64,000 bases of DNA from Oceanobacillus oncorhynchi (GTDB lineage Bacteria; Bacillota; Bacilli; Bacillales; Amphibacillaceae), in NCBI RefSeq assembly GCF_000821065.1, contig NZ_CDGG01000001.1, forward strand, positions 3,162,001-3,226,000. Direction: 5' to 3'. The notes under the pieces were generated by a model. That model saw nothing but the letters and a program-made list of their open reading frames with translations, made no database searches and was not told where the DNA came from. Position numbers and translations under genes: made by a program. Position 1 is the first letter of the stretch. The number at the start of each line of letters is the position of its first letter. Of this stretch, positions 13,615 to 30,685 are shown piece by piece.

Positions 13615-15201
13615 ATGTTTTCTTTGATTAAAAATATGACGATTCGAAAGCGGATTGTCTTTATATTTCTGACTTTATCTACTTTTCTTATTTTATTATT
13701 TATTTCTGTGTTTGCTTATTTTGAGATTGGCAATGCCCAGGATACATACAAGCAATTATCCAGACAGACGGCTAATGGACTGGCCTTTATGCCGGCTTTG
13801 GAGGAAGCTGTCAGCAGCAGTGACCATGACGAATTACAGGGAATTATTGACCGTGTGCGGCTGCAGGCAGAAAATCCGGTTGTGACCGTAGTTACACGAG
13901 ACGGAGAATATATTATCCATCCAGATGAAAACCACATCGGTATAACGGAAGAAACAGAGCAATTTGACCAGACGCTGTTATATGGCTCTTATGTGACAGA
14001 GTCTGGGGAAGGGGCGCTTGGACCTGCTATTATGACCACTGCACCAATCTATGAAGAGGTGGATGCCAATGGCGGGGAAAGAATTATCGGTGCGGTTACA
14101 GTCGAGTATTTGGAAGAATCGATCAACGCTATCATAGTAAGTAAGCTCACAAGATTAGTTATCGTGGCATCCATTGGGATGATTCTTTGCGTTGGCGGAG
14201 CGTTGTTTTTAGCCAGAAGTATTCAGGAGGATACGCTGGGCATTGAGCCTGCAGTTATCGCAGAAATGTTCCGTGAGCGGGAGGCCATGTTAAACGCAGT
14301 AAAAGAAGGGATTATTGTGATTGATGATAAGCAAGCGATTTCCTTGATTAATCCCTCTGCGAAGGCATTACTAGATTCATCGATGGAGCTCCGGCAGTCG
14401 ATTCAACTGCTTGGCCTGCCGGAGACGCTTTTCTCTGGAAAGCCGAGCTATGATGAGGAAAAAGTCTACCAAGGGAAAACATTTATTACGAATTGCATTC
14501 CTTTATATGAAAATAAACAGATTGTCGGTGCGATTTGCAGTTTTCGAGATAAAACAGATATGAAGCAGCTTCAAGAAACAGTGATGCAGATAGAGGGCTA
14601 TGCAGATAGCCTGCGTGCCCAGACACATGAATTTAAAAATAAGATGTATGTGCTGTTGGGGTTAATCCAGCTTGAGCAATATGAGGAAGCGTTAAAAGTG
14701 ATTCAGGAAGAAACCGCTGATAAGCGACAAGCATTCCCAATGTTAAAGAACATTAAAGACCCTGGAGCGCAGGCAATTTTATTAGGGAAACTAGCGAAGG
14801 CGGCTGAGAAAAAAATAGCACTTATCATAGAAGAAGCAAGTCATCTGGATAAAACGAAAATAGCTGCTGCAGATATGGCTATCATGCTTGGCAATTTATT
14901 AGATAACGCCATGGATGCTGTACTAGAATCGGAGGAACAGAGAATCACCGTGATGGTTACTGATGTTGGAAGTGATATTGTGATAGATATAGAAGATACA
15001 GGGCCGGGAATGACGAAAGAACAGACTGGGCAGATTTTTACCAGAGGATATTCCAGCAAAGGGGAAAATAGAGGCTATGGTCTGTTTCATGTCTATGAAG
15101 CGGTGAAAAAGTATTGTGGAGAGATGGAAGTGACTTCCCCAGCTGAAGGTGGAACTGTGTTTTCTATCTATTTACCAAAAGGAGAAGAGGTGAAAAAATG
15201 A
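13615..15201 (+). CDS. CitA/DcuS-family sensor kinase for di/tricarboxylates
   Basis: A 528-residue membrane kinase. TM1 is at about 13-35, an extracellular PDC-like sensor at 36-180 (VVTVVTRDGEYIIHPDENHIG), TM2 at about 182-205, a PAS domain at ~225-310 (IVIDDKQAISLINPSAKAL), a SpoOB-type phosphorylation helix (AQTHEFKNKMYVLLGLIQ, His ~338) and an ATPase domain (NLLDNAMDAV, DTGPGMT, GYGLFHVYEA). This architecture is that of citrate and fumarate sensors. It overlaps the regulator gene by 4 bp and sits upstream of a tricarboxylate transporter, so it probably senses the transported acid. Confidence 0.93.
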   Translation: MFSLIKNMTIRKRIVFIFLTLSTFLILLFISVFAYFEIGNAQDTYKQLSRQTANGLAFMPALEEAVSSSDHDELQGIIDRVRLQAENPVVTVVTRDGEYIIHPDENHIGITEETEQFDQTLLYGSYVTESGEGALGPAIMTTAPIYEEVDANGGERIIGAVTVEYLEESINAIIVSKLTRLVIVASIGMILCVGGALFLARSIQEDTLGIEPAVIAEMFREREAMLNAVKEGIIVIDDKQAISLINPSAKALLDSSMELRQSIQLLGLPETLFSGKPSYDEEKVYQGKTFITNCIPLYENKQIVGAICSFRDKTDMKQLQETVMQIEGYADSLRAQTHEFKNKMYVLLGLIQLEQYEEALKVIQEETADKRQAFPMLKNIKDPGAQAILLGKLAKAAEKKIALIIEEASHLDKTKIAAADMAIMLGNLLDNAMDAVLESEEQRITVMVTDVGSDIVIDIEDTGPGMTKEQTGQIFTRGYSSKGENRGYGLFHVYEAVKKYCGEMEVTSPAEGGTVFSIYLPKGEEVKK

Positions 15202-15881
15202 ATGTGGTTATTGCAGAAGATGATTATCGGGTAGCTTTATTGCATGAAAAGTATCTGCAGGCTTTTTCAGAGATCACAGTTGTTGGCAGAGCGCTGAATG
15301 GCAAAGAACTCAAGGAGCTGATAGAAAAAGAGAAAGTAGATCTGATCATCCTTGATATTTATTTTCCTGATATATTAGGGACAGAATTGCTTCATTACCT
15401 GCGAATGCATTCTCCGGATCTGGATATTATTATGGTCTCTGCATCTACAGACCGGCAGCATTTGCAGCTGGCAAAACGTTATGGCGTATACCAGTACTTA
15501 ATTAAACCAGTGACGGTGGATGATTTTACAAATACGGTAAAACAATATGTAAAGGATCGGATATGGTTTGAAGAAACGGGAGAATTTAAAGCGAACGATA
15601 CCGATTATTTTTTGACAGGGGGATACCAGCGAAGCATAGAAGAAAAAGGGACAAATATGCCTTTGCCGACAGGGATTGATTCCATTACATTAGAAAAAGT
15701 AAAAGCAGCGTTAAGGGAGCATCCAGAAGGGGTAACCATCGATAAGATGTGCCAGCTGGTCGGGATTTCAAGAACAACGGCCAGACGATATTTGGAGCAT
15801 ATCGTATCTGACGAAGAAGCTACTACCATTTTAAATTATGGGGTTATCGGCCGGCCGGAAAGAAGATATATTTTACAGTAA
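15198..15881 (+). CDS. CitB-family response regulator
   Basis: A 227-residue regulator with receiver domain (AEDDYRVALLHEKYL; phospho-acceptor Asp in LIILDIYFPD; Lys in LIKPV) and a C-terminal helix-turn-helix (GVTIDKMCQLVGISRTTARRYLEH) as in CitB/DctR proteins. Its ATG overlaps the kinase stop. A terminator follows, so transcription of tctCBA starts separately and is probably activated by this protein. Confidence 0.93.
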   Translation: MNVVIAEDDYRVALLHEKYLQAFSEITVVGRALNGKELKELIEKEKVDLIILDIYFPDILGTELLHYLRMHSPDLDIIMVSASTDRQHLQLAKRYGVYQYLIKPVTVDDFTNTVKQYVKDRIWFEETGEFKANDTDYFLTGGYQRSIEEKGTNMPLPTGIDSITLEKVKAALREHPEGVTIDKMCQLVGISRTTARRYLEHIVSDEEATTILNYGVIGRPERRYILQ

Positions 15882-15890
15882 AACCTCAAA

Positions 15891-15917
15891 ACATCCTGGT
15901 ATCAGGGTGTTTTTTTA
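15891..15917 (+). terminator. Terminator after the CitAB-type operon
   Basis: ACATCCTG pairs with CAGGGTGT, followed by TTTTTT. Confidence 0.8.
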
Positions 15918-16031
15918 TTCTCTTTTTTTCACTTAATGGATAAAAAGGACGAAAAGGCATTAAAGAATGTTAAGTGAATAAAATTCGAAATATTGTTTTT
16001 CCTCTTTGGGTTTGCAATAATTACCCTATCA

Positions 16032-16047
16032 TTGAAAGCGTTTACTT
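16032..16047 (+). promoter_or_regulatory. cre-like CcpA site upstream of tctC
   Basis: TGAAAGCGTTTACT matches the cre pattern TGNAANCGNNWWCA except at the last base, 27 bp upstream of the tctC start. This predicts carbon catabolite repression of the transporter. Confidence 0.6.
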
Positions 16048-16073
16048 AATTATTTATTTTGAGAGGTGTTGAC

Positions 16074-17048
16074 ATGAAGCGTTTATGCTTATTATTTATT
16101 GGCTGTATTCTTCTGGCAGGATGTTCAGAGAATACCAGTGAAGGGAAAGGGACCTTTCCTGAAAAAAACATAGAGATTATTGCTCCGGCAAGTCCGGGCG
16201 GCGGATGGGACAGGACAGCGCGTTCTGCACAGCGGGCGATGAATGCGGACGGGACCGTAGAAGAGGATATTACAGTAGTGAACAAGCCTGGAGGCGGCGG
16301 GGAAGTAGGCTGGCAATATTTGATGCAGCAGGATGCGCATTTTGCTGCATTAAATTCCAGTCTATTAATTACAGGTCCATTGCTTGGTCAGACAGAATTA
16401 ACCCATGAAGAATTTACGCCATTAGCCATGTTATCTACGGAATGGCTTGCTGTGGCAGTCCGGGAAGATGCAGGGATTGACAGCGGTACAGAGTTATTGG
16501 AGCAGTTGAAGGAAGATCCAAAGTCGCTGGTGATTGGTGTCAGTCCATCTTTAGGAAGCGGGAATCATCTGGCCTTTGTCCAAGCTGTGATTGAATACGG
16601 CATTGATCCGACAGAATTACAGTTCCTTGTTTACAGCAGCGGCGGCGATATTATGAATGCATTACTTGGCGGACACATCGATGTCACCAGCAATTCGTTA
16701 TCTGACCTGTCCGAACAATATTTAGCAGGAGAAGTGGATATATTAGCTGTTACATCGCCAGAAAGACTAGACGCATTTCCGGATATACCAACCTGGAAAG
16801 AGCAGGGTATTGATATGGAATTTCCGCATTGGCGCGGAATCATGGGCCCTCCGGGAATGAGTGAAGAGGAAATTGCTTCCTGGGACCTTTATTTGAGTGA
16901 AATGGTAGAAACAGAAGAATGGCAAACAGATTTAGAGAATAATAATTTGGAAGAATTCTATATGAACAGTGAAGAAACAAAGGAATTTTTACAAGATCAA
17001 AATGAATTTTTTGAAGGTATAGTAGAGGATTCTGGCTTAACGCCTTAG
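16074..17048 (+). CDS. tctC: TctC-type substrate-binding lipoprotein
   Basis: A 324-residue extracytoplasmic receptor of the Bug/TctC family. ATG 16074 is preferred over the TTG frame start at 16059, with GAGAGGTG upstream. The signal ends in the lipobox LLAGCSEN. Typical family signatures follow: FPEKNIEIIAPASPGGGWDRTAR, NKPGGGGEVGWQYL, and LLGGHIDVTSN. It captures a carboxylate, probably a tricarboxylate, outside the membrane and hands it to TctAB. First gene of a three-gene operon. Confidence 0.92.
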   Translation: MKRLCLLFIGCILLAGCSENTSEGKGTFPEKNIEIIAPASPGGGWDRTARSAQRAMNADGTVEEDITVVNKPGGGGEVGWQYLMQQDAHFAALNSSLLITGPLLGQTELTHEEFTPLAMLSTEWLAVAVREDAGIDSGTELLEQLKEDPKSLVIGVSPSLGSGNHLAFVQAVIEYGIDPTELQFLVYSSGGDIMNALLGGHIDVTSNSLSDLSEQYLAGEVDILAVTSPERLDAFPDIPTWKEQGIDMEFPHWRGIMGPPGMSEEEIASWDLYLSEMVETEEWQTDLENNNLEEFYMNSEETKEFLQDQNEFFEGIVEDSGLTP

Positions 17049-19698: not shown

Positions 19699-20118
19699 AT
19701 GTCGGCAAGAAAGACATTGCAGAGCTTAGCTAACTTGGAGAAAGCAATCGGAAGACTGGAAGATGCTCTAAATGAAGGTGCAAAGAATAGCTTGTTTATC
19801 GATGGAACAATTCAACGTTTTAAGACTGCGTTTGAGCTTTATTGGAAAACGTTAAAACGAATGCTTGAAGAAGAAGGGATTGAAGCAAAATCCCCCAGAG
19901 AGACATTAAAACAAGCATATGCAGTAGATTGGATTCAAAATGAACAAGCTTGGCTGCAAATGCTCCGTGATAGAAATGAAACCTCCCATGTATATGATGA
20001 AAAGAAGGCAAGAGATATTTATGAAAATATTGCAGGTTATTTCCCTGAAATGAAGGAGACCTTTAAATTTCTAAAAGAAAAGTATAAAGAAGGAGGGAGT
20101 GGATTTTACGATGATTGA
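19699..20118 (+). CDS. HEPN-domain protein, HI0074/HepT type
   Basis: A 139-residue all-helical protein. GAGGGAG precedes ATG 19699. Residues ~98-105 read RNETSHVY, matching the RX4HXY motif of HepT ribonuclease toxins and the equivalent motif of HI0074-family proteins. It overlaps the following nucleotidyltransferase by 8 bp. In MntA-HepT systems the HEPN protein cuts RNA until AMPylated on the motif Tyr by MntA. The same pair has also been described as nucleotidyltransferase plus substrate-binding subunit. The toxin role is inferred from motif and context. Confidence 0.85.
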   Translation: MSARKTLQSLANLEKAIGRLEDALNEGAKNSLFIDGTIQRFKTAFELYWKTLKRMLEEEGIEAKSPRETLKQAYAVDWIQNEQAWLQMLRDRNETSHVYDEKKARDIYENIAGYFPEMKETFKFLKEKYKEGGSGFYDD

Positions 20119-20608: not shown

Positions 20609-20752
20609 CGTATACGAAACATTATTTGTACGGTTATCACAGGTGAAATTGAAATGAATTCTCTTATAAGACTATGGTATACTCAGTTGTAGAAGCATAA
20701 TCAAGATAATATAATCAAAGCATTTAGCATTATATTTTTGGAGGAAGATAAC

Positions 20753-22537
20753 ATGCTGCAAATGAATTCACAAGAGCTATTAAATGAAGAAAATGGTCAA
20801 GCCGGCAATTGGATGAGAAGGAATCCGGAGATCATTTATTTAAATGAAACTGTAAAAGCTGCAGCAGCGCTTCTTCATAATTTGGCAGCCGATTTCCTTC
20901 CTGTTGTAGGGGAATCTATGAATCCGGTTGGAATCATTACGTCCAAAGCAATCCTGAAAGCGTACCTGGATGGGGAAAACGAAGCGTCGATTGCGAATTA
21001 TATATCACAGGAGGATTTTTCGATTATTCGAGCCGATGAGTTCATCATCGATTTTTATAAAATGCCGTATACTTACTTTTTTGCAGTTAATGAGAAGCAG
21101 CAGCTGACAGGCGTATTAACAAGAAAAGAAATACAGCAATGTTTATCGTTTTATATGAACGAGCTGAGTCAAACCTCTCATACTGCCGAAATTTTGGATG
21201 TTATTCTTGAAAGCGCTTATGAAGGGGTTGCTGTTGTTAATCAGGAAGGAATCATTATTGAGTTTAATGAAGCCTACAGCCGTTTTACTGGAATTGATCA
21301 GAAGGATGCTGTCGGACGACCAGTACAGGAAATTATTGAGAATACCAATCTGCATCATACAGCCAGAAATGGAATGCCGGAGCGGGGAGTTATCCAATAC
21401 ATCCAAGGGCAGCCGATGGTGGTGCACCGGATACCGATATGGAGAGAAGAAAAGCTGGTGGGCGCAATCGGGATGCTTATTTTTGAAGGCGTAACAGAGC
21501 TATATCAAATCTATGATCGGTTTTTGGAAAAAACGATGCAGACAGCTGTAAATAAAGACAGAGTGAAGCAGCCTTTGCAGGAGAACAGAATAGAGCATGC
21601 ATCGATTGAAAAAATTAAGGGATCCAGTGAACAGATAACGGATGTGAAGCGGATTACCCGAAAAGTTGCCAAAACAGATGCAACCGCTTTAATCACAGGG
21701 GAAAGCGGAACTGGGAAAGAAATGTTCGCTAAAAGCATCCATGAGCTGAGTTATTATCAACATGGTCCATTTATCAGTGTCAACTGCGGCGCCATACCGG
21801 AGCAGCTTTTTGAGTCTGAAGTATTTGGCTATGCAGATGGTGCCTTTACAGGTGCGAGAAAAGGCGGGAAACCGGGAAAGTTAGCATTAGCTAAAGGAGG
21901 GACACTGTTTTTAGATGAGATTGGTGAAATGCCTGAGATGATGCAGACAAAATTATTGCGTGTGCTGCAGGAAAAGGAATTTGAACGGGTAGGAGCAGTT
22001 CAAAAAGAAAAGCTGGAGGCAAGAATCGTTGTAGCGACAAATCAGAATTTGTTAGAAATGGTTCGGGAGGGAACCTTTAGAGAGGATTTATATTATCGGA
22101 TCAACGTTATTGAAATCCCGATACCGCCGTTAAGAGAGCGTCCGAAAGACATCCCGGTACTGATTTCTCATTACTTATCGAGTTTGTGTAAGAAATATGA
22201 TGTTCCGGATAAAGAAGTAACACCTGAAGCAATGGCTGTTTTTATGAATTATGCCTGGTATGGAAATATCCGAGAGCTGATAAATACAATGGAAAAGTTA
22301 GTTATTTTAGTTGAATCCGATACCATCGATGTAGACCATCTTCCAAACTATTTGAAGCGTTTTGACCTGCTGGAGACGCCTTACGTCTTCCAGCGGGAAG
22401 TGAAGAATAAAGAAAAAGAAGTTCTGATGAAAGCGCTGGAAGAGAACAGAGGCAACAAATCAAAGGCAGCGAAGGAACTCGGGATGCACCGTACGACATT
22501 ATATAAAAAAATGAAAAAGCATGGTTTGGATAAATAG
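20753..22537 (+). CDS. Sigma-54-dependent activator with CBS and PAS sensor domains
   Basis: A 594-residue enhancer-binding protein. ATG 20753 has GGAGGAAG upstream. Two CBS motifs (residues ~12-135: LPVVGESMNPVGIITSKAIL, TGVLTRKEI) and a PAS domain (~145-250: GVAVVNQEGIIIEFNEAYS) precede the AAA+ domain with Walker A GESGTGKE (~316), the sigma-54 contact loop GAFTGA (~363) and Walker B LFLDEIGE. A Fis-type HTH (NKSKAAKELGMHRTTLYKKM) ends it. The downstream genes carry a matching -24/-12 promoter and two dyads, so it is their local activator. Confidence 0.95.
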   Translation: MLQMNSQELLNEENGQAGNWMRRNPEIIYLNETVKAAAALLHNLAADFLPVVGESMNPVGIITSKAILKAYLDGENEASIANYISQEDFSIIRADEFIIDFYKMPYTYFFAVNEKQQLTGVLTRKEIQQCLSFYMNELSQTSHTAEILDVILESAYEGVAVVNQEGIIIEFNEAYSRFTGIDQKDAVGRPVQEIIENTNLHHTARNGMPERGVIQYIQGQPMVVHRIPIWREEKLVGAIGMLIFEGVTELYQIYDRFLEKTMQTAVNKDRVKQPLQENRIEHASIEKIKGSSEQITDVKRITRKVAKTDATALITGESGTGKEMFAKSIHELSYYQHGPFISVNCGAIPEQLFESEVFGYADGAFTGARKGGKPGKLALAKGGTLFLDEIGEMPEMMQTKLLRVLQEKEFERVGAVQKEKLEARIVVATNQNLLEMVREGTFREDLYYRINVIEIPIPPLRERPKDIPVLISHYLSSLCKKYDVPDKEVTPEAMAVFMNYAWYGNIRELINTMEKLVILVESDTIDVDHLPNYLKRFDLLETPYVFQREVKNKEKEVLMKALEENRGNKSKAAKELGMHRTTLYKKMKKHGLDK

Positions 22538-22587
22538 TGTAGCAGAATAACTACAACTTTTCAGTGAAGTGTAGCTGTTTAGCTACA
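22538..22587 (+). promoter_or_regulatory. Two tandem 18-bp dyads, likely activator-binding UAS
   Basis: 22538-22555 and 22570-22587 both fit TGTAGCNGNNTANCTACA. Centres are 32 bp apart, about three helical turns, on one DNA face. The second dyad, extended to AGTGTAGCT-GTTT-AGCTACACT with TTTTT after it (22568-22594), could also act as terminator of the activator gene. Confidence 0.7.
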
Positions 22588-22626: not shown

Positions 22627-22643
22627 TTGGCATGATTTTTGCT
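22627..22643 (+). promoter_or_regulatory. Sigma-54 (-24/-12) promoter
   Basis: TTGGCATG-ATTT-TTGCT: the GG (22629-22630) and GC (22641-22642) dinucleotides are separated by exactly 10 bp, as SigL promoters require. It lies 39 bp upstream of the alcohol dehydrogenase start. Confidence 0.85.
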
Positions 22644-22681: not shown

Positions 22682-23875
22682 ATGGGAGAGAGTAATGTGT
22701 TTCGTACACCACAGACTATTCATTATGGAAAAGATGCTTTTAAAAAGATAGGGAAGGAAGCATCGGAAAAAGGGCAGAAGGCGCTGATTATCAGTGACCG
22801 TATCATGGAGAAGCTTGGTTATGTCAGCGAGTGCAGTGATATCCTTTTGCAGGGACGGATTGAAAGCGCTGTCTATTTAGGGGTTGAATCAGAGCCGACA
22901 GATGTTTATGTTGCTGAGGCATTGGAATTATGTAAAAAAGAAAAATGTGATGTCGTTATTTCCGTAGGTGGAGGCAGCTGTATTGATACGGCCAAGGCAG
23001 TAGCTGTCGCTGCAGTAAATGGGATTTATATTGGAGAGTATATGGGTGGAAAGAAACAAATAGAGCAGCAGCCGCTTCCGCATATAGCAGTGCCGACTAC
23101 AGCCGGAACAGGTTCAGAAGCAACAGATGTTACCGTAATCACTGATACAACGAATGATGTCAAGATGATGATTAAGCAGCCATTACTGATGCCGAATGTA
23201 GCGATTGTAGACCCTGTTCTAAGCATATCATCGCCTAAATCCGTTACAGCTGCTACCGGGATTGATGCTTTAAGTCATGCGGTGGAGGCTTATATTTCGA
23301 AAAAAGCACAGTCCATGACAGACACGCTGGCTTTATCGGCGATTGAACAAATCGTAAAGAATATAAGAACGGCCTATAACGAAGGAGAGAATGTGGCTGC
23401 CCGGGAAGCAATGTCTATTGGATCCATGCAGGCGGGGATGGCTTTTTCCAATGCCTCGGTGTGCTTAGTGCATGGTATGTCCAGACCGATTGGAGCGTTG
23501 TTCCATGTACCGCATGGGATTTCTAATGCAATGCTTCTTCCTGCTGTGCTTGATTTCAGCAGAGATGATTGTGTGAATCGATTAGCTGATTTAGCGAAAT
23601 TTTTTGATGCGGACGCAGATAGGCTTTCTAAAGAGGAAGCTGCAGATCTGACGGTTTATGAAGTAAAAAAACTGTGCTATGAGTTAGATGTTCCTAATTT
23701 ACAAGGCTGGGGAATCGATCAGAAGAATTTTGAAGCAGCTGTCAGTAAAATGGCGGAAGATGCAATGGCAAGCGGCAGCCCGCAAAATAATCCGAGAGTA
23801 CCAACAAAAGAAGAGGTAGAGGAGCTTTATCATGTTTGTTTCTCGTATCAGTTTAGCATAGAAAAAACGTCGTAA
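22682..23875 (+). CDS. Iron-containing (group III) alcohol dehydrogenase
   Basis: A 397-residue NAD(P)-dependent dehydrogenase. The N-terminal half has the dinucleotide motif VISVGGGSCIDTAKA and AVPTTAGTGSE. The helical half has the metal-binding His residues in SHAVEAYIS (ASP/His region), HGMSRPIGALFHVPHG. Group III members oxidise small hydroxy acids and alcohols (for example 4-hydroxybutyrate, 1,3-propanediol). First gene after the sigma-54 promoter. With an MmsA-type enzyme downstream, the attractive reaction is 3-hydroxypropionate to malonate semialdehyde; this is inference. Confidence 0.92.
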   Translation: MGESNVFRTPQTIHYGKDAFKKIGKEASEKGQKALIISDRIMEKLGYVSECSDILLQGRIESAVYLGVESEPTDVYVAEALELCKKEKCDVVISVGGGSCIDTAKAVAVAAVNGIYIGEYMGGKKQIEQQPLPHIAVPTTAGTGSEATDVTVITDTTNDVKMMIKQPLLMPNVAIVDPVLSISSPKSVTAATGIDALSHAVEAYISKKAQSMTDTLALSAIEQIVKNIRTAYNEGENVAAREAMSIGSMQAGMAFSNASVCLVHGMSRPIGALFHVPHGISNAMLLPAVLDFSRDDCVNRLADLAKFFDADADRLSKEEAADLTVYEVKKLCYELDVPNLQGWGIDQKNFEAAVSKMAEDAMASGSPQNNPRVPTKEEVEELYHVCFSYQFSIEKTS

Positions 23876-23907
23876 TAGAAGGGATGATATCAAGGGGGAT
23901 AAATGGG

Positions 23908-25239
23908 ATGGAAATAATCAGTTTTATCGGATTGATAGCTGCGCTTGCTTTGCTCGTCTATCTGACAATGAAGGGAATTCATATTATCGTTGCTGCGCTG
24001 ATCAGCTCAGTAGTTATAGCTGTTACAGGGGGATTGAATTTAGAAACAGCATTACTGGATAATTATATGACGGGCTTTACAGGGTATTTTGCTTCATGGT
24101 TTTTAGTATTTTTATTGGGTGCTATTTTTGGAAAGTTTATGCATGAAACCAAATCAGCGGAAAGTATTGCCCAGTGGATTAAAAAGAAATTCGGCGTCAA
24201 ACGGGCCGTGTTTGCCGTGGTAGCGGCAGCAGCAGTGATGACATATGGAGGGGTAAGTTTATTTGTAGTTGGCTTTGCGGTCTACCCAATTGCTGTTTCC
24301 CTGTTCCGTGCGGCCAATCTGCCGCATCGTTTTATTCCTGCTGCACTTATTTTTGGATCGATTTCGTTTACGATGACTGCACCGGGATCACCGGAAATAC
24401 AAAATATTATTCCAACAGAATTCTTTGGAACTACACCGACAGCAGGCGGCTGGATTGGAGTTTTATGCTCCCTGCTGATTATGATTGCCGGCGGATTGTA
24501 CCTTGGATCAATGGTGAAGAAAGCGGTTGCCGGCGGGGAAGAATTTTCTCCTCCAAAATCCGTTCTGGAAAAAGAAAAAGAGGAGGCAGCTGCCGCTGTG
24601 GAAGAAAATGAATCACAGGCGCTGCCGAATATTGTGGTTGCTATTTTACCTCTCTTTTTAGTTATTGTTTTACTAAATATATTAGGTCAGTTTATGAACC
24701 CGACAACGGCATTATTAATTGCATTAATTGTAGGGATTGCTGTTTCCTGCTTAACGATGTTGAAATTTCTTAAGGAATTTTGGAGTTCAATGGCAGCAGG
24801 AACACAAAATGCACTGGTTGCACTGGCAAATACCTGTGCGGTCGTTGGTTTTGGAAGTGTTGCCGCAGAGGTATCGGCATTTGATACCTTGATAACTGGA
24901 CTTGTTAATCTGCCTGGACCGCCATTATTGGGACTGGCTATTGGGGTAACGGTTATTTGCGGAATTACTGGTTCGGCCTCTGGCGGATTAGGGATTGCAC
25001 TGCCTATTCTAGCGCCTATTTATTTAGCGCAAGGAGTAGACCCTGGTGCAATGCATCGTATTTCTGCGTTAGCATCCGGCGGTCTGGATTCGCTTCCGCA
25101 TAATGGAGTCGTTGTTACGACGGTAAGAGCTATTTGCGGCGAGACGCACAGCCGGGCATATAAACCCGTTTTCCTTGTTAGTATTATTGTTCCAAGTATC
25201 GTATTAGTATTGGCGATTGTGCTTTACAGTCTTATTTAA
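23908..25239 (+). CDS. GntP-family carboxylate permease
   Basis: A membrane transporter of about 443 residues with 11-13 helices. ATG 23908 follows AAGGGGG with good spacing; ATG 23884 is the longer alternative. GntP-family features include VMTYGGVSLFVVGFAVYPIA, FTMTAPGSPEIQNIIPTEF and ITGSASGGLGIALPILAP. Members carry gluconate and short hydroxy acids such as 3-hydroxybutyrate. Its place between the alcohol dehydrogenase and the aldehyde dehydrogenase suggests import of the hydroxy acid those enzymes oxidise. Confidence 0.9.
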   Translation: MEIISFIGLIAALALLVYLTMKGIHIIVAALISSVVIAVTGGLNLETALLDNYMTGFTGYFASWFLVFLLGAIFGKFMHETKSAESIAQWIKKKFGVKRAVFAVVAAAAVMTYGGVSLFVVGFAVYPIAVSLFRAANLPHRFIPAALIFGSISFTMTAPGSPEIQNIIPTEFFGTTPTAGGWIGVLCSLLIMIAGGLYLGSMVKKAVAGGEEFSPPKSVLEKEKEEAAAAVEENESQALPNIVVAILPLFLVIVLLNILGQFMNPTTALLIALIVGIAVSCLTMLKFLKEFWSSMAAGTQNALVALANTCAVVGFGSVAAEVSAFDTLITGLVNLPGPPLLGLAIGVTVICGITGSASGGLGIALPILAPIYLAQGVDPGAMHRISALASGGLDSLPHNGVVVTTVRAICGETHSRAYKPVFLVSIIVPSIVLVLAIVLYSLI

Positions 25240-25266
25240 TAAAGAATATTACAGGAGGTTTTTTCA

Positions 25267-26727
25267 TTGACACAGACAACAGTAGAAACATTAAAAAATT
25301 ATGTAGGCGGAAAATGGATCGAAGCGAAAACAGCAAAAACAGAAGAGGTAGTGAACCCGGCGACAGGAGAAGTGCTTGCTCACGTGCCGTTATCTACTTT
25401 AGAGGATATTAATTATGCAATAGAAACAGCTGCAGAGGCATTTGAAACCTGGAAAGAAATTCCGGTACCAAAACGTGCCCGGATTCTATTTAAATACCAG
25501 CAGCTTCTTGTTGATAATCATGAGGAACTGGCAAAGCTGATCACTCTTGAAAATGGTAAAAACTTTGCGGAAGCGTATGGAGAAGTACAAAGAGGAATCG
25601 AAAATGTAGAATTCGCAACAGGAGCGCCGTCATTGATGATGGGAGAGCAGCTTGCTTCGATTGCAACAGAGTTGGAATCCGGATTATACCGTTATCCAAT
25701 CGGAGTTATTGGAGGAATCACACCGTTTAATTTTCCAATGATGGTGCCGTGCTGGATGTTTCCGATGGCGATTGCGACTGGAAATACGTTTGTAATGAAG
25801 CCTTCTGAACGGACACCGCTGCTTGCCAATCGTTTAGCGGAATTACTGGAAGAAGCTGGTCTCCCGGGCGGTGTGTTCAATATTGTTCACGGCGCACACG
25901 ATGTCGTAAACGGATTATTAGATCATCCGCAAGTGGCAGGGATTTCATTTGTCGGTTCGCAGCCGGTGGCCGAGTATGTCTACAAGCGCGGGACGGATAA
26001 TTTAAAACGGGTACAGGCTTTGGCAGGCGCAAAGAATCATTCGATTGTTCTGCAGGATGCCAACCTGGATAATGCTACAACACAAATTATGAATGCGGCA
26101 TTTGGTTCGGCTGGCGAGCGCTGTATGGCAGCTTCTGTAGTAGCAGTAGAGGACAGCGTTGCAGATGAATTTATCAAGCTTTTGACACAAAAAGCCAATG
26201 GAATTCAAATTGGTAATGGTTTAGATGAAGGAATTTTCCTTGGACCAGTGATACGTGACAAGCATAAAGAACGTACGTTAAGCTATATCGAAGCTGGACA
26301 AGAAGAAGGGGCTAATCTGGTCCGGGATGGCCGAAAAGATGAAGCTGTGAAGGAAAAAGGCTATTTTGTCGGTCCGACCATTTTTGATCAAGTTACTTCG
26401 GAAATGAAGATATGGCAGGATGAGATTTTTGCGCCTGTATTATCTATCGCTCGTGTGAAGGATTTAAGTGAAGCAATTGAACTGTCTAATCAATCACGCT
26501 TTGCGAATGGAGCATGTATTTTTACCAGAGATGGGGGAAGCGTCCGTCAATTTCGGGAAACCATTCATGCAGGAATGCTTGGTGTGAATATTGGTGTACC
26601 GGCGCCAATGGCATTTTTCCCCTTCTCCGGGTGGAAGGATTCGTTTTATGGGGATTTACATGCCAATGGGAAAGACGGGTTACATTTCTATACGAGAAAG
26701 AAAGTTATTACGACGAAATGGGTGTAA
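25267..26727 (+). CDS. (Methyl)malonate-semialdehyde dehydrogenase, CoA-acylating type
   Basis: A 486-residue aldehyde dehydrogenase, the length of IolA/MmsA. TTG 25267 follows ACAGGAGGT. Diagnostic features are the catalytic Cys in [12 protein letters not shown] (Cys ~285), the substrate loop [18 protein letters not shown], and the C-terminal [20 protein letters not shown] that separates MmsA/IolA from ordinary ALDHs. It converts malonate semialdehyde (or methylmalonate semialdehyde) with CoA and NAD to acetyl-CoA (or propionyl-CoA) plus CO2. Last gene of the sigma-54 operon. Confidence 0.93.
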
Positions 26728-26739
26728 GGAGAAAGAGAG

Positions 26740-26771
26740 GTCGCTGTATTTTTGCAGCGGCTTCTTTTTTT
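26740..26771 (+). terminator. Terminator of the sigma-54 operon
   Basis: GTCGCTG pairs with CAGCGGC (one G-U), followed by a T-rich run. Confidence 0.75.
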
Positions 26772-26847
26772 TGTTTGTAAGCAAGCTTCTAGTCATCAAA
26801 TAAGTAAAATAGATTTTATAATTTTTAAAATAGTATATTGCAAAGCT

Positions 26848-26884
26848 AACTTATCTGATGTATATTATATTCATCAGATAAGTT
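26848..26884 (+). promoter_or_regulatory. Perfect 13-bp dyad, GntR operator
   Basis: AACTTATCTGATG, 11-bp AT spacer, CATCAGATAAGTT. It lies directly before the GntR-family gene and overlaps its likely leader, so it is a strong candidate autoregulatory operator for the downstream operon. Confidence 0.8.
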
Positions 26885-26900
26885 GAGAGGAGGTATCTTT

Positions 26901-27560
26901 TTGAGAGGGAATTTTAACACAGTATACGATAAATTAAAAGACGAAATTATGAGCGGAAGTCTTGAGGAAGGCACAAAGTTACTTTCTTTGGCTAAGTTAT
27001 CTGATAAGTATGATGTTGGCGTGTCTACTGTCAGAGAGGTATTGAGAGCGCTGCAAAGCCAGTCTTTTGTTAAAATCGAGCAAGGAAGAGGCACATTTGT
27101 TACATACGATGCAAAAAGAAGCAATGACTCTATATCGAAATCAGAAGTAAGAGATTTAATGGATTTAACCAGTTTTAGAACAATGGTGGAACCTTCTTTT
27201 GCTGGAATTGCTGCAGTACAAGCATTTCAATTTGAGATTGATTTAATTGTTGAGTCAGCAAATAAGATGGCGGAGTTAGCTAAAAAAGGAGAAGACACCA
27301 AAGAAGAGGATTTAACTTTTCATCTATTAATAGCTAAAGCAACGCATAATGCTTATACGATAAAATTTTATGAGGATTTTCAAGAGCAGTTATCGATGGG
27401 AAGAAAACATACCAATGTTCCAGGAATGATTGAAAAGGCAGCACATTATCATTTGATGATAGCGGAAGCAATCAGAACTAGAAATAGCAGTCAGGCAAAG
27501 ATGTACATGCAGGCGCATATGGAATCAAATGAAGAATTAGCTTTAAATTTGTTATTCTAA
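26901..27560 (+). CDS. GntR-family (FadR/FCD) repressor of the sugar-acid operon
   Basis: About 219 residues. TTG 26901 fits the AGAGGAGGT at 26885; the upstream TTG 26883 would overlap the ribosome site. The N-terminal winged helix has the GntR pattern LSKYDVGVSTVREVLRALQSQ with the wing IEQGRGTFV. The C-terminal helical domain (~80-215) has the metal-binding residues expected of FCD, including His in DLTFHLLIAKATHN and HYHLMIAEAI. It probably releases the dyad at 26848 on binding a sugar acid. Confidence 0.9.
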   Translation: MRGNFNTVYDKLKDEIMSGSLEEGTKLLSLAKLSDKYDVGVSTVREVLRALQSQSFVKIEQGRGTFVTYDAKRSNDSISKSEVRDLMDLTSFRTMVEPSFAGIAAVQAFQFEIDLIVESANKMAELAKKGEDTKEEDLTFHLLIAKATHNAYTIKFYEDFQEQLSMGRKHTNVPGMIEKAAHYHLMIAEAIRTRNSSQAKMYMQAHMESNEELALNLLF

Positions 27561-27593
27561 ATTTCTTAATTTTTAACAACGAGGTGAACTGTT

Positions 27594-29270
27594 TTGAAAA
27601 GGGTTACATCATATGGAGACAAAGGATTTAGTGAGTATATAAAAATGGCGTTTCAAAGAAATCTTGGATATGACGAGAATGATTATAATAAGCCTATTAT
27701 TGGGATATGTAATACGTTTAGTGAAATCAACAGATGTCATGCACATTTAAAACCGATAATTAATTCTATAAAAAATGGAATTTTAATGGCAGGAGGGATT
27801 CCTCTTGAATTTCCAACGATTTCTGTTGGAGAAATGTTTACCAGTCCTACTACGATGCTGTATAGAAATCTAGTAGCGATGGACACGGAAGAAATGATAA
27901 GTGCACAGCCTATTGATGGTGTTGTTCTTATTGGAGGCTGTGACAAAATGGCCCCAGGACAATTGATGGGAGCTTTTAGTGCCAATAAACCTGCCATTCT
28001 ATTTACTGGAGGTCCGATGGAAAATGGTGAATATAAAGGGAAGACTCTGGGAGCCTGCAGTGACTGTAGACATTATTGGCAAGAATACAAGGCAGGGACA
28101 ATCTCGGAGAAAGAATTATCCGAGATAAATGCCCAATTAGCTCCAACAAATGGACATTGTATGGTCATGGGATCAGCGAGTACGATAGCTGCTTGTTCAG
28201 AGGCATTAGGCATCATGCTTCCAGGGAGCTCTACTCCTCCAGCTACAGTGAATGAACGATTAAGAATGGCAAAAGAAACAGGAAAAGCTATCGTTAATTT
28301 AGTGGAAAAAGATATAAAACCTGCCGATTTTATTACGAAAAATTCATTTGAAAACGCTATCACCACTTTAATGACAGTAGGCGGTTCAACCAATACGGTT
28401 ATACATTTAATAGCAATAGCTAAAAGACTTGGGATTGATTTAACATTAGATGACTTTGAAAAAATATCGCAAAGAACTCCGATATTAGCTAATTTAAGAC
28501 CGGCAGGAGAATTCCAAATGCAAGAATTTTATCATGCGGGAGGCGTTTCTGCATTATTAACAGAGTTAAAACAGCTGCTGCATTTAGAAGAATTAACGGT
28601 TTCGAATAAAACGCTTGGAGAAAATATTGAAGGTGCAGAAGTAATAGAAGAATATAGAAAGATAATTAAACCATTTCATAAGCCGCTTTATAAAAATGGA
28701 GGGATTAAATTATTAAAAGGGAATCTAGTACCTTCCGGGGCAATTATAAAGCCCAAAGCAATAGCAAACCCTAAATTAATGAAGCATACTGGAAAAGCTA
28801 TCATATTTGATTCCATACAAGAGATGGAGGAGAAAATAAATGATGATAATTTGCAGGTAGATGAAAGCAACGTGTTGGTATTAAGAAATGCCGGACCCGT
28901 TGGTGCGCCTGGAATGCCAGAAGCGGGAGGGATCCCTATTCCCAAAAAACTTTTAAAAGAAGGAATCAGGGATATGGTTCGAATTTCAGACTGCCGGATG
29001 AGTGGAACGGCTTCCGGTACCGTGGTTCTTCATGCTGCACCTGAAGCCGCTGTTGGAGGGCCGTTAGGTCTTTTGAAAAATGGAGATAAGATACATTTGG
29101 ATATAGAAAATGGAATTCTTGAAGTACTGGTTTCTGAGGATGAATTACAAAAGAGAAAAGAGTTTTGGAAGCCTCCTGTATTTAAAGAAGGACGAGGCTA
29201 TCCCCAGTTATACAGAAATCATGTTCTTCAAGCCTCAGAGGGGTGTGATTTTGATTTTTTACTCCCTTAA
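27594..29270 (+). CDS. IlvD/Edd-family dehydratase, sugar-acid (pentonate/hexonate) type
   Basis: A 558-residue Fe-S dehydratase; TTG 27594 follows a GAGGTGAAC site. Cluster cysteines are in GICNTFSEINRCHAH, LIGGCDKMAPGQ and LGACSDCRHYW; substrate and Mg2+ motifs are NGHCMVMGSASTIAA, VGGSTNTVIHL and RISDCRMSGTASGTVVLH. The RCHAHLKP and DCRHYW signatures point to aldonate dehydratases rather than dihydroxy-acid dehydratase. Product would be a 2-keto-3-deoxy sugar acid. No aldolase or kinase for it lies nearby. Confidence 0.9.
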   Translation: MKRVTSYGDKGFSEYIKMAFQRNLGYDENDYNKPIIGICNTFSEINRCHAHLKPIINSIKNGILMAGGIPLEFPTISVGEMFTSPTTMLYRNLVAMDTEEMISAQPIDGVVLIGGCDKMAPGQLMGAFSANKPAILFTGGPMENGEYKGKTLGACSDCRHYWQEYKAGTISEKELSEINAQLAPTNGHCMVMGSASTIAACSEALGIMLPGSSTPPATVNERLRMAKETGKAIVNLVEKDIKPADFITKNSFENAITTLMTVGGSTNTVIHLIAIAKRLGIDLTLDDFEKISQRTPILANLRPAGEFQMQEFYHAGGVSALLTELKQLLHLEELTVSNKTLGENIEGAEVIEEYRKIIKPFHKPLYKNGGIKLLKGNLVPSGAIIKPKAIANPKLMKHTGKAIIFDSIQEMEEKINDDNLQVDESNVLVLRNAGPVGAPGMPEAGGIPIPKKLLKEGIRDMVRISDCRMSGTASGTVVLHAAPEAAVGGPLGLLKNGDKIHLDIENGILEVLVSEDELQKRKEFWKPPVFKEGRGYPQLYRNHVLQASEGCDFDFLLP

Positions 29271-29335
29271 GCAATAGTAATCTAGTGAATACCCTTGAAT
29301 AGAGCAGTATATAAAAGAAGGAGGATTAATATTTT

Positions 29336-30685
29336 ATGGAAAGTACTGCGTGGATTATTACGGTAGGAATACTAGCGATGGTAATATTACTTTTTCTGAT
29401 TATCAGAACAAAGCTTCAAGCCTTTTTAGCCCTGATTATAGCCAGCTTATTTGTAGGGCTAGCTGTTGGCATGCCGCCGCAGGAATTATTGGCACATATC
29501 GAAGAGGCGATGGGTGGTACGCTTGGTTTTGTGGCATTAATTATTGGAATTGGAACAATATTCGGGGAAGTATTGAGAGCATCCGGGGCATCTGAAAAAT
29601 TGGCTTTAACCTTGATGGACAAATTTGGAGAAAAGAATATTGTCTGGGCGCTAGGGGCAAGCGGATTTCTGATTTCTATAGCTGTTTTTATTGATGTTGC
29701 TATCGTCATATTGGTTCCGTTAACCTATGCCTTAGTAAGGAAATCAAAAAAATCATTACTTTATTATGGAATTCCTTTAACAGCTGGTCTTAGTGTTACG
29801 CATACGTTTATTCCTCCAACACCCGGACCTATTGCAACTGCAAGTATAATCGGTGCTGATTTGGGTTATGTCATTTTATTTGGAGTAATTGCAGGTATCC
29901 CAGCCATGATAATTGCCGGACCGCTTTTTGGAAAATTTATATCGAAAAAAATTCATGTAGATGTTCCTGAACATTTTAAAGAATCAGAGGTAAACTATGA
30001 TCCAGATAAACTGCCGGGATTTGCCGGTGTTGTTATTATGTTGATTGCACCGCTGATTTTAATTTTAGGAAATACTACGGCAGATTTATTATTGGATGAA
30101 GGGAATATAGTTAGAGAAATTCTGATGTTTATTGGAAATCCTATCATTGCCTTATTAATTGTAAGTCTTTTAACCATATGGTTATATGGAACAAGGCGAG
30201 GTTTTACTAAAGGGGAACTGCAAAAAATAACTACAAGAGCTTTAGAACCGGCAGGGATAATCATTTTGATAACTGGTGCTGGAGGAGTATTTGGACAAAC
30301 GTTGATAGCTACTGGAATTGGAGACATTCTTGCAGATTCAATGCAGCAAATTAATATGCCGATTATCTTATTCGGATTTATCACTGCAGCATTAATTCGA
30401 ATTACACAGGGATCAGGAACAGTATCAATGATTACTGCTGCCAGTCTGGTTTCACCTTTAATCCAGCATTTTGATGTCAGTGAACCAATGCTAGGATTGG
30501 TAACAATCGCAATTGCTTGTGGAGGGACTGCTTTTTCTCATGTGAATGATTCCGGTTTTTGGATGGCGAATAGATATTTTGGAATGAGTGTAGCCGACAC
30601 GTTAAAGTCTTGGACAGTTATGAAAACGTTAGTTGGATTAACTGGATTAGCAGTTGTTTTAATATTAAGTTTATTTATAAAGTAA
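29336..30685 (+). CDS. GntP-family gluconate/sugar-acid permease
   Basis: A 449-residue, 12-13 helix H+ symporter of the gluconate permease family. AGAAGGAGGA precedes ATG 29336. Signatures include FVALIIGIGTIFGEVLRASG, HTFIPPTPGPIATASIIGADLG, and RITQGSGTVSMITAASLVSP. Closer in pattern to GntP proper than the paralogue at 23908. It follows the dehydratase in the GntR-controlled operon and should import its substrate. Confidence 0.92.
   Translation: MESTAWIITVGILAMVILLFLIIRTKLQAFLALIIASLFVGLAVGMPPQELLAHIEEAMGGTLGFVALIIGIGTIFGEVLRASGASEKLALTLMDKFGEKNIVWALGASGFLISIAVFIDVAIVILVPLTYALVRKSKKSLLYYGIPLTAGLSVTHTFIPPTPGPIATASIIGADLGYVILFGVIAGIPAMIIAGPLFGKFISKKIHVDVPEHFKESEVNYDPDKLPGFAGVVIMLIAPLILILGNTTADLLLDEGNIVREILMFIGNPIIALLIVSLLTIWLYGTRRGFTKGELQKITTRALEPAGIIILITGAGGVFGQTLIATGIGDILADSMQQINMPIILFGFITAALIRITQGSGTVSMITAASLVSPLIQHFDVSEPMLGLVTIAIACGGTAFSHVNDSGFWMANRYFGMSVADTLKSWTVMKTLVGLTGLAVVLILSLFIK

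Follow-up and report, generated by a model that had tools for sequence, protein, structure and literature searches.

The 3-hydroxypropionate (3-HP) branch of DMSP catabolism is formed by DddB, an alcohol dehydrogenase, and the MmsA-type DddC, which in Marinomonas, Pseudomonas and Psychrobacter take 3-HP to malonate semialdehyde and on to acetyl-CoA, according to the sections covered of two reports (PMC9327192, PMC8163506). The Psychrobacter DddB and DddC had no activity on acryloyl-CoA, which is not a test of 3-HP use, in the covered part of the latter (PMC8163506). Cupriavidus necator has a dedicated 3-HP operon, hpdH-mmsA2, apart from its beta-alanine and valine mmsA operons; the text covered has HpdH annotated as a choline dehydrogenase, places the operon under LysR control and names no permease (PMC6572756).

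The operon analysed here lies in a 64,000-nucleotide stretch of the Oceanobacillus oncorhynchi genome (the window). Open reading frames for an iron-type alcohol dehydrogenase (FeADH), a permease and an MmsA-type dehydrogenase follow one another on the same strand with gaps of 8 and 27 bases (Table 1). Together with the sigma-54 promoter confirmed at 22627, this bears out the preliminary description, which had joined the three genes in one sigma-54 operon. A regulator gene and tandem TGTAG-N8-CTACA sites, absent from that description, are part of the same unit. The stem that may end the operon was listed by a scan on the opposite strand only.

Table 1. Features of the proposed 3-HP operon, in window positions.
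Feature	Position	Strand	Evidence
Sigma-54-dependent activator (CBS - PAS - AAA+ with GAFTGA - Fis HTH), likely 3-HP sensor	20738..22537	+	PF00571, PF00989, PF00158 (E 6e-68), PF02954
Predicted upstream activator site 1, TGTAG-N8-CTACA	22538..22555	+	exact match
Predicted upstream activator site 2, TGTAG-N8-CTACA, 32 bp after site 1	22570..22587	+	exact match
Sigma-54 promoter TTGGCATGATTTTTGCT, -24 GG / -12 GC	22627..22643	+	consensus match
FeADH, proposed 3-HP dehydrogenase / malonate semialdehyde reductase	22682..23875	+	PF00465/PF25137, clade, R268 signature, neighbourhood test
GntP-like permease, proposed 3-HP carrier	23884..25239 (likely start 23908)	+	PF02447 E 5e-10
CoA-acylating malonate/methylmalonate semialdehyde dehydrogenase (MmsA/IolA type)	25267..26727	+	TIGR01722 608 bits, paralogue identities, tree
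Stem (CGCTG...CAGCG) and T-run 3' of MmsA, possible operon end	26742..26772	+	read from sequence

Comparison with described and related systems places the locus close to the DMSP degraders. We take DddB to be an iron-type enzyme, in agreement with the FeADH found in a dddD-like/BCCT/FeADH/MMSDH cluster, which is 46.9% identical to the window FeADH and belongs to the same clade, marked by an arginine at position 268 (R268). The earlier remark that no iron dehydrogenase was known in such an arrangement therefore fails, because DddB with DddC performs the same chemistry in DMSP degraders and the dddD-like cluster holds a related FeADH. Unlike DddB/DddC, the window operon has a GntP-like permease, and the nine proteins scanned between 17530 and 30682 include neither a DMSP lyase nor a BCCT transporter; the dddD-like cluster has IclR/LysR genes in place of the sigma-54 activator, and the window MmsA is IolA-like, with 46% identity to the DddC-like protein. 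In the portions of the literature covered, the 3-HP genes of C. necator and P. denitrificans resemble the proposed operon in being dedicated to 3-HP, and the mmsA operons of C. necator are divided similarly to those of this genome, although HpdH is presumably of the flavoprotein type. On Acinetobacter plasmids, genes of these three types also adjoin one another, but with an IclR regulator and identities of 44% (FeADH), 38% (permease) and 48% (MmsA); we met no description of their function in the literature covered. The PA2005/RpoN system for 3-hydroxybutyrate in P. aeruginosa likewise combines a sigma-54 activator, a hydroxy-acid dehydrogenase and a GntP-family permease, but it handles a C4 acid with an SDR dehydrogenase. 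A second operon of O. oncorhynchi (L091; L-numbers label the loci compared) also unites a dehydrogenase, an MmsA and a related permease, its dehydrogenase being of the HIBADH family and presumably acting on 3-hydroxyisobutyrate (3-HIB).

The regulator has the features of a sigma-54 enhancer-binding protein, with matches to PF00158 and PF02954 (E 1e-16) and a GAFTGA loop in its translation, and sigma-54 genes are present in the genome. Its nearest NCBIfam model is PrdR (NF041552), with a score of 493 bits, under the cut-off of 795. The activator gene lies 5' of FeADH in 46 of 80 relatives, counting one locus with a short ORF (L067) that was added by hand. TGTAG-N8-CTACA matches twice in the 64 kb, where 0.01 matches are expected, and the exact tandem pair was found at one place in the 4.6-Mb genome and not at its iol or aminotransferase-linked genes. 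With up to one mismatch allowed, overlapping matches counted and the window included among the 47, 40 of the 47 loci that have the regulator, but 1 of the 34 that lack it, showed at least two sites; the site was absent from 5 of the 47. The promoter TTGGCATGATTTTTGCT is the only match to YTGGCAYRNNNYTTGCW in the 64 kb (0.04 expected), and matches at a minimum of 10 of the 14 positions scored occur in all 45 loci flagged as having the regulator and in 4 of 35 unflagged loci, one of the four being L067 with its short regulator ORF. Conservation across loci establishes the sites, which the activator would bind.

The first gene product matches PF00465 and PF25137 (E about 1e-51), upholding its assignment as an iron-type alcohol dehydrogenase, and D195, H199, H264 and H278 occupy the positions of the metal ligands, as in FucO. 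The GbsB (choline) model, which has its cut-off at 550, gave 305.6 bits, whereas the genome's own paralogue at genome position 2461591 reached 739.4, and GbsB was rejected for the window protein. The 4-hydroxybutyrate dehydrogenase model NF058672 had no match over its cut-off in 149 genomes. Invariant R268 marks the clade holding the window FeADH. In a 94-row tree, the FeADHs labelled as adjoining MmsA, dddD-like or iol genes form one 80-row clade (SH-aLRT 98), and in a 114-row tree R268 separates 82 rows from 32 by one change (SH-aLRT 99), both trees being short searches with SH-aLRT as the only support. The smaller tree holds 94 of 110 sequences, without 14 near-copies among L016-L087 and the own paralogues L097 and L098 (ORF uncaught). 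The larger adds 22 rows (L095-L097, L122-L140; L098 and L099 gave no match) and omits the same near-copies and the long-branch paralogue copies OWN_L095 and X_L095; 112 of its rows differ, and L122 and L139 repeat, or nearly repeat, genes already present (L009, OWN_L094). FucO, DhaT, Mdh and ADH2 have His in the R268 column, and the window FeADH groups not with them but with the FeADH of the dddD-like/BCCT/MMSDH cluster, a comparator taken from that cluster and not an assayed DddB sequence. The R268 rows examined span Bacillota, Pseudomonadota, Actinomycetota and Halobacteria.

The third gene was described as an MmsA/IolA-type dehydrogenase, and its TIGR01722 score of 608 bits, over the curated cut-off of 448.5, agrees. 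Its closest solved structure is 1t90, and C286, R109 and R285 stand at the positions of what we take to be the catalytic Cys and two functional Arg; a literature search on MSDH residues R124/R301 found nothing relevant. Four MMSDHs in the genome exceed the cut-off, the other three lying in aminotransferase, iol and HIBADH-family/GntP contexts. The window enzyme is 85% identical to the aminotransferase-linked paralogue, 70% to the genome's IolA and 41% to the HIBADH-linked MmsA, and it groups with the first two in a tree from which ten Cytobacillus-type loci were left out. Because the HIBADH-family dehydrogenase of L091 scores 215 bits with TIGR01692, under the cut-off of 291.6, its substrate is one we infer. 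B. subtilis IolA is said to accept both C3 and C4 semialdehydes.

The middle gene had been called a GntP permease, a name that stands only as 'GntP-like' because its family matches are weak: PF02447 gives 39.2 bits, over the gathering score of 22.5, but TIGR00791, the GntP gluconate:H+ symporter model, gives 32.6 bits against a cut-off of 292.75, ruling out a classical gluconate GntP. The protein shares 41% identity with the permease of the HIBADH-linked operon and, across 122 residues, 25% with the classical GntP encoded at 29336. ATG 23908, preceded by an AAGGGGG site, is a more probable start than 23884. A literature search linking GntP with 3-HP found no relevant paper.

Genomic neighbourhoods were compared in 80 relatives (L009-L088) kept from 103 found, most chosen by similarity to the window protein. 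The order downstream of FeADH was GntP-MmsA in 33, MmsA in 25 and GntP in 3, with neither directly downstream in 19. MmsA thus follows in 58 relatives, 25 of which lack the permease. The neighbourhood test covered 125 loci (L009-L088; L105-L120 without L113; L150-L157 and L163-L184), while L158-L162 were read apart from it, the contigs of L158-L160 equalling those of L072, L009 and L014 in length; L150-L157 stand outside the trees and were assigned R268 by motif. Beyond L009-L088, MmsA, dddD-like (DMSP), inositol or aminotransferase neighbours accompany 18 of 23 R268 FeADHs and 2 of 30 non-R268 Fe-ADHs, both next to an R268 gene; none of 26 Fe-ADHs in 20 control loci has one. Such neighbours are absent for 16 of the 80 relatives and 5 of the 23 other R268 enzymes, and five of the seven non-R268 Fe-ADHs in L009-L088 also have one at a distance of up to 6 kb, each being the second Fe-ADH of its locus. 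Besides the dddD-like and Acinetobacter clusters, the contexts include an acrylate-type cluster in Rhodococcus from nitrile soil, iol operons that include FeADH but show no annotated or recognisable iolA in the part examined (including L152, L153, L155 and L156), and an aminotransferase III gene with FeADH close to dihydropyrimidinase and PreA genes (L157). Breakdown of inositol, uracil or DMSP yields the C3 semialdehyde, and malonate semialdehyde is the metabolite common to the MmsA, DMSP, inositol and aminotransferase contexts. R268 thus appears to mark an enzyme family with shared malonate semialdehyde / 3-HP chemistry.

A 3-HP catabolic operon is the best explanation, to which we give a probability of about 0.8 from sequence comparison. 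The CBS/PAS activator would sense 3-HP or a product of it, bind both sites and open the promoter; the permease would import 3-HP; FeADH, with R268 probably holding the carboxylate, would oxidize it with NAD to malonate semialdehyde; and the MmsA/IolA-type enzyme, by the activity of its family, would convert this with CoA and NAD to acetyl-CoA and CO2. Gene neighbourhoods, phylogeny and paralogue comparison support the uptake, oxidation and CoA-acylating decarboxylation first proposed, and the original '3-HP or related 3-hydroxy acid' can be narrowed, with fair confidence, to 3-HP. In other organisms the same type of dehydrogenase appears placed for the reverse step, from malonate semialdehyde to 3-HP.

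It seems improbable that the operon instead serves the C4 acid 3-HIB, through uptake, oxidation to methylmalonate semialdehyde and formation of propionyl-CoA. We take MmsA-family enzymes to accept both semialdehydes, and in the genome itself a HIBADH-family gene is accompanied by an MmsA and by a permease related to that of the window operon (41%); but that set, with its presumed substrate, would already provide for 3-HIB, the window MmsA is far closer to the inositol- and aminotransferase-linked enzymes (70-85%) than to the HIBADH-linked one (41%), and it is the C3 compound that arises in the routes for inositol, uracil and DMSP with which FeADH is associated. Lysinibacillus unites genes for FeADH, a permease, MmsA, a HIBADH-family enzyme and 3-hydroxybutyrate dehydrogenase. 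At five of its loci FeADH comes after an MmsA like the HIBADH-linked one, and at four of these the genes for the HIBADH-family enzyme and 3-hydroxybutyrate dehydrogenase are present too, so the substrate there may be a C4 acid.

We regard as similarly improbable a safety valve, in which FeADH would reduce surplus malonate semialdehyde to 3-HP for export by the permease. Where an iol operon has no recognised IolA, an R268 FeADH that acts on malonate semialdehyde would do so as a reductase, and the last gene of two such operons, L155 and L156, shares 37-38% identity with the GntP-like permease of Acinetobacter, that of L155 having no Pfam match. The window operon, however, has its own MmsA to consume malonate semialdehyde and its own activator, with the exact site pair confined to this place in the genome. 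Least probable is a different substrate alcohol (1,3-propanediol, a polyol or a sulfonate) whose aldehyde MmsA would process: some relatives (the L015 group, L106) have a gene of the HisD family, together with a GntP-like permease, inside or adjoining them, and diols are therefore conceivable inputs, but the R268 clade excludes DhaT, FucO, Mdh and the genome's GbsB, and MmsA-type enzymes act on carboxylated aldehydes.

The chemistry of the 3-HP operon is not new; what is new is the sigma-54 circuit, the recurrent GntP-like permease as a candidate 3-HP carrier and the R268 signature. We think the odds somewhat better than even that R268 Fe-ADHs form one widespread family of malonate semialdehyde / 3-HP oxidoreductases that work in both directions and use Arg268 to read the carboxylate, acting as 3-HP dehydrogenases beside MmsA and as malonate semialdehyde reductases in inositol and uracil breakdown, the recurrent GntP-like neighbours being 3-HP carriers, in this case controlled by a sigma-54 circuit of one operon. 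Another iron-type enzyme is the malonic semialdehyde reductase known from Nitrosopumilus. 3-HP is formed when DMSP and acrylate are broken down; it is also a platform chemical, and production hosts that consume it again are a nuisance. A signature of one residue would tell likely 3-HP dehydrogenases from generic 'iron-containing alcohol dehydrogenases' and help to predict makers and eaters of 3-HP, and the operon offers engineering a compact sigma-54 sensor with a candidate 3-HP carrier. If Arg268 does read the carboxylate, a large superfamily of enzymes would have in it a simple switch of specificity.

As to SEMIALDEHYDE type, the genome of the window (4.61 Mb) encodes four (methyl)malonate semialdehyde dehydrogenases (MMSDHs) scoring over the curated cut-off, the window's MmsA among them. 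A class III aminotransferase (PF00202) and a PucR-like regulator, the latter named by eye, precede one paralogue (locus L089), and a hydantoinase/carbamoylase-family amidase lies 5 kb from it. Another (L090) lies inside an iol operon whose genes were named by eye; the annotated E. faecium proteins share 66% identity with its IolC and 61% with its IolD. The third (L091) follows a HIBADH-family gene (TIGR01692, 215 bits, under the cut-off of 291.6) and precedes a GntP-like permease. The window's MmsA is 85%, 70% and 41% identical to the aminotransferase-linked, iol and HIBADH-linked enzymes, respectively, and in the MmsA tree it groups with IolA, apart from the HIBADH-linked group. These identities and the tree point to malonate semialdehyde as the probable substrate of MmsA, and hence to 3-hydroxypropionate (3-HP) as the alcohol. 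The aminotransferase-linked MmsA (L089:7598-9085) itself falls within the clade of MmsAs from candidate 3-HP operons, and looks as if it had been copied from one of these. For Cupriavidus necator, primary roles have been suggested in beta-alanine use for mmsA1, in 3-HP degradation for hpdH-mmsA2 and in valine breakdown for mmsA3, a division of labour among mmsA operons similar to that among the MMSDHs here (PMC6572756).

Features of the FeADH-GntP-MmsA operon and its borders (window coordinates)
Feature	Position	Strand	Remark
Sigma-54 activator	20738-22537	+	gene upstream of control region
Control region, 144 bases	between activator and FeADH	+	
Group III iron-type alcohol dehydrogenase (FeADH)	22682-23875	+	
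GntP-like permease	23884-25239	+	probable start 23908
MmsA/IolA-type aldehyde dehydrogenase	25267-26727	+	
GntR regulator	26883		next gene after MmsA

The GntR gene looks like the opening of a separate unit. The stretch 26883-30685, comprising the GntR/FCD regulator, a sugar-acid (IlvD/Edd family) dehydratase and a true GntP permease, looks like a sugar-acid unit of its own, apart from the FeADH operon. On the other flank, 19699-20118 encodes an HI0074-family nucleotidyltransferase substrate-binding protein, a family that often forms one half of a toxin-antitoxin pair.

The control region holds a sigma-54 promoter, TTGGCATGATTTTTGCT, at 22627-22643, the sole consensus match within 64 kb (0.04 expected). 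The only two matches to TGTAG-N8-CTACA within 64 kb (0.01 expected) are perfect copies 5' of it, at 22538 and 22570. An exact tandem pair, with 1-30 bases between copies, occurs at a single place in the genome, and this pair points to one operon. Sites were counted in the window and its 80 relatives, allowing at most one mismatch and including overlapping matches. At least two matches were present in 40/47 loci with the activator, and at least one exact copy likewise in 40/47; the site was absent from the stretch inspected in 5/47. Among loci without the activator, 1/34 had two matches and 2/34 one or more, and shuffled stretches yielded a match in ~0.6%. A -24/-12 match (at least 10 of 14 scored positions) was found in all 45 loci flagged with an activator and in four of the 35 not so flagged (L049, L063, L066 and L067); the activator ORF of L067 is short, and this locus was counted as the 46th relative with an activator. 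Given this co-occurrence across loci, activator, sites and promoter travel together. The activator would sense 3-HP or a product of it. Two genes of this genome, at positions 1213712 and 1678354, match the sigma-54 DNA-binding domain.

Alignment of the FeADHs revealed an arginine, R268, in 94/94 group members versus 0/14 other Fe-ADHs, accompanied by H275 (94/94 versus 2/14) and an S364-G365-P367 stretch. The same column holds His in FucO, DhaT, Mdh and ADH2, and we infer that R268 may bind the substrate carboxylate. In a tree extended by 22 further rows, the 82 rows with R268 form one side of a branch (SH-aLRT 99) and 32 lack it, requiring a single change. We asked which genes lie within 6 kb, using fixed identity thresholds and MmsA, iol, DddD-like and class III aminotransferase genes as targets. 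Outside the 80 relatives (L009-L088), target neighbours were found for 18/23 R268 FeADHs and 2/30 other Fe-ADHs (Fisher p 7e-8 for 18/5 versus 2/28, with rows that are non-independent, for example two Acinetobacter plasmids and two same-genus genomes). Both exceptions (L150, L151) adjoin an R268 gene and its MmsA. Control loci (L165-L184, n=20), chosen from 4-HB and GbsB model hits, gave 0/26. Within the relatives, targets neighbour 64/80 R268 FeADHs and also 5/7 non-R268 Fe-ADHs, which are second Fe-ADHs of the same loci. Counting against the association, 16/80 of the relatives and 5/23 of the other R268 FeADHs lack a target within 6 kb. L125 was fetched as a 4-HB model hit, and its Fe-ADH closest to the window's (48.7%) has R268; in L150, the wider stretch of this locus, that gene adjoins MmsA. 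L150-L157 stand outside the trees, and their R268 was read by motif.

FeADH settings were surveyed in 15 plasmid hits and in genome relatives; malonate semialdehyde/3-HP is the single metabolite shared by the routes that they represent. In Pseudomonas sp. MPC6, FeADH lies beside a DddD-like double CoA-transferase (838 aa, PF02515 twice, as in DddD), a BCCT carrier and an MMSDH. A DddD-like gene is also near FeADH on a P. aeruginosa plasmid. Rhodococcus sp. M8-35, from nitrile-contaminated soil, carries crotonyl-CoA-reductase-like, quinone-reductase-like, enoyl-CoA hydratase, FeADH, MMSDH and hydratase genes and, further along, one for an AMP-binding protein, a cluster that reads as a putative acrylate-to-3-HP route. 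FeADH sits within iol operons on an E. faecium plasmid (28 kb, incomplete gene table) and in L152, L153, L155 and L156 (16-17 kb), in none of which was iolA annotated or recognised over the stretch covered; L155 and L156 have an aldehyde dehydrogenase of 30% identity on the opposite strand. In L157, an aminotransferase III-FeADH pair is near dihydropyrimidinase and PreA genes. Two Acinetobacter plasmids carry GntP-FeADH-MMSDH with an IclR gene, a Vibrio plasmid has GntP near FeADH with iolG 6 kb on, and Rhodococcus rhodochrous and one haloarchaeon have an MMSDH-FeADH pair. Five plasmid hits (L105, L109, L112, L118, L120) show no such setting; R268 is absent from L112 and L120.

The window's permease is 83% identical to its counterpart in the relative L009, 46-48% to permeases of a Lysinibacillus 3-hydroxy-acid operon and a HisD-linked Cytobacillus operon, 41% to the one in its own genome's HIBADH-linked operon and 37-38% to permeases at the Acinetobacter, Metabacillus and Vibrio FeADH loci. 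With the classical GntP at 29336 it shares 25% identity over 122 residues. The recurrence of GntP-like genes close to R268 FeADHs across several lineages lends support to the permease as a candidate 3-HP carrier; it is missing from 25/58 relatives with MmsA directly downstream. The last gene of the L155 and L156 iol operons (14781-16196 and 14588-16003) is 37-38% identical to the Acinetobacter permease; it might export 3-HP, and a Pfam search with the L155 gene gave no match.

Several related operons were also seen. A HisD-family gene (cluster 5) occurs at 12 loci in all. In L015 (76-4856), SDR, HisD-family, LacI and GntP-like genes lie immediately 5' of the candidate 3-HP operon, and on a Metabacillus plasmid (L106:8696-11508) the HisD-family gene lies downstream of MmsA within the operon. 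It may resemble HpsN-type (dihydroxypropanesulfonate) dehydrogenases, or serve a diol feeding into 3-HP. In Lysinibacillus (L074, L076, L078, L080; about 2277-8155 in L074), HIBADH-family, MmsA, GntP-like, 3-hydroxybutyrate dehydrogenase family and R268 FeADH genes form an operon that may serve several 3-hydroxy acids jointly; the GntP-like gene was unrecognised in the L078 copy. In L048, L071, L072, L075 and L077, a 3-hydroxyacyl-CoA-dehydrogenase family gene (cluster 10, 311-321 aa) adjoins FeADH-MmsA; the L048 and L077 proteins were scanned, and each scores under the cut-off of its 25 listed NCBIfam models.

DMSP clusters with dddB and dddC have been described (PMC8163506), and this chemistry is already known. 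Searches of the open-access literature, preprints excluded, turned up no description of the sigma-54 circuit, of such a permease or of the residue signature, and in that sense these three are new.

Of 103 relatives found, 80 were kept. Directly after FeADH, 33 have GntP-MmsA, 25 MmsA, three GntP and 19 neither; the activator, present in 46/80, accompanies 33/33, 12/25, 1/3 and 0/19 of these, respectively. A close FeADH (68-76%) occurs in 6/22 other genomes of the genus, and one at E 1e-90 or better in 10/299 sampled genomes of the phylum, its own included. Given this patchy presence in genus and phylum, the gene set is an accessory catabolic cassette.
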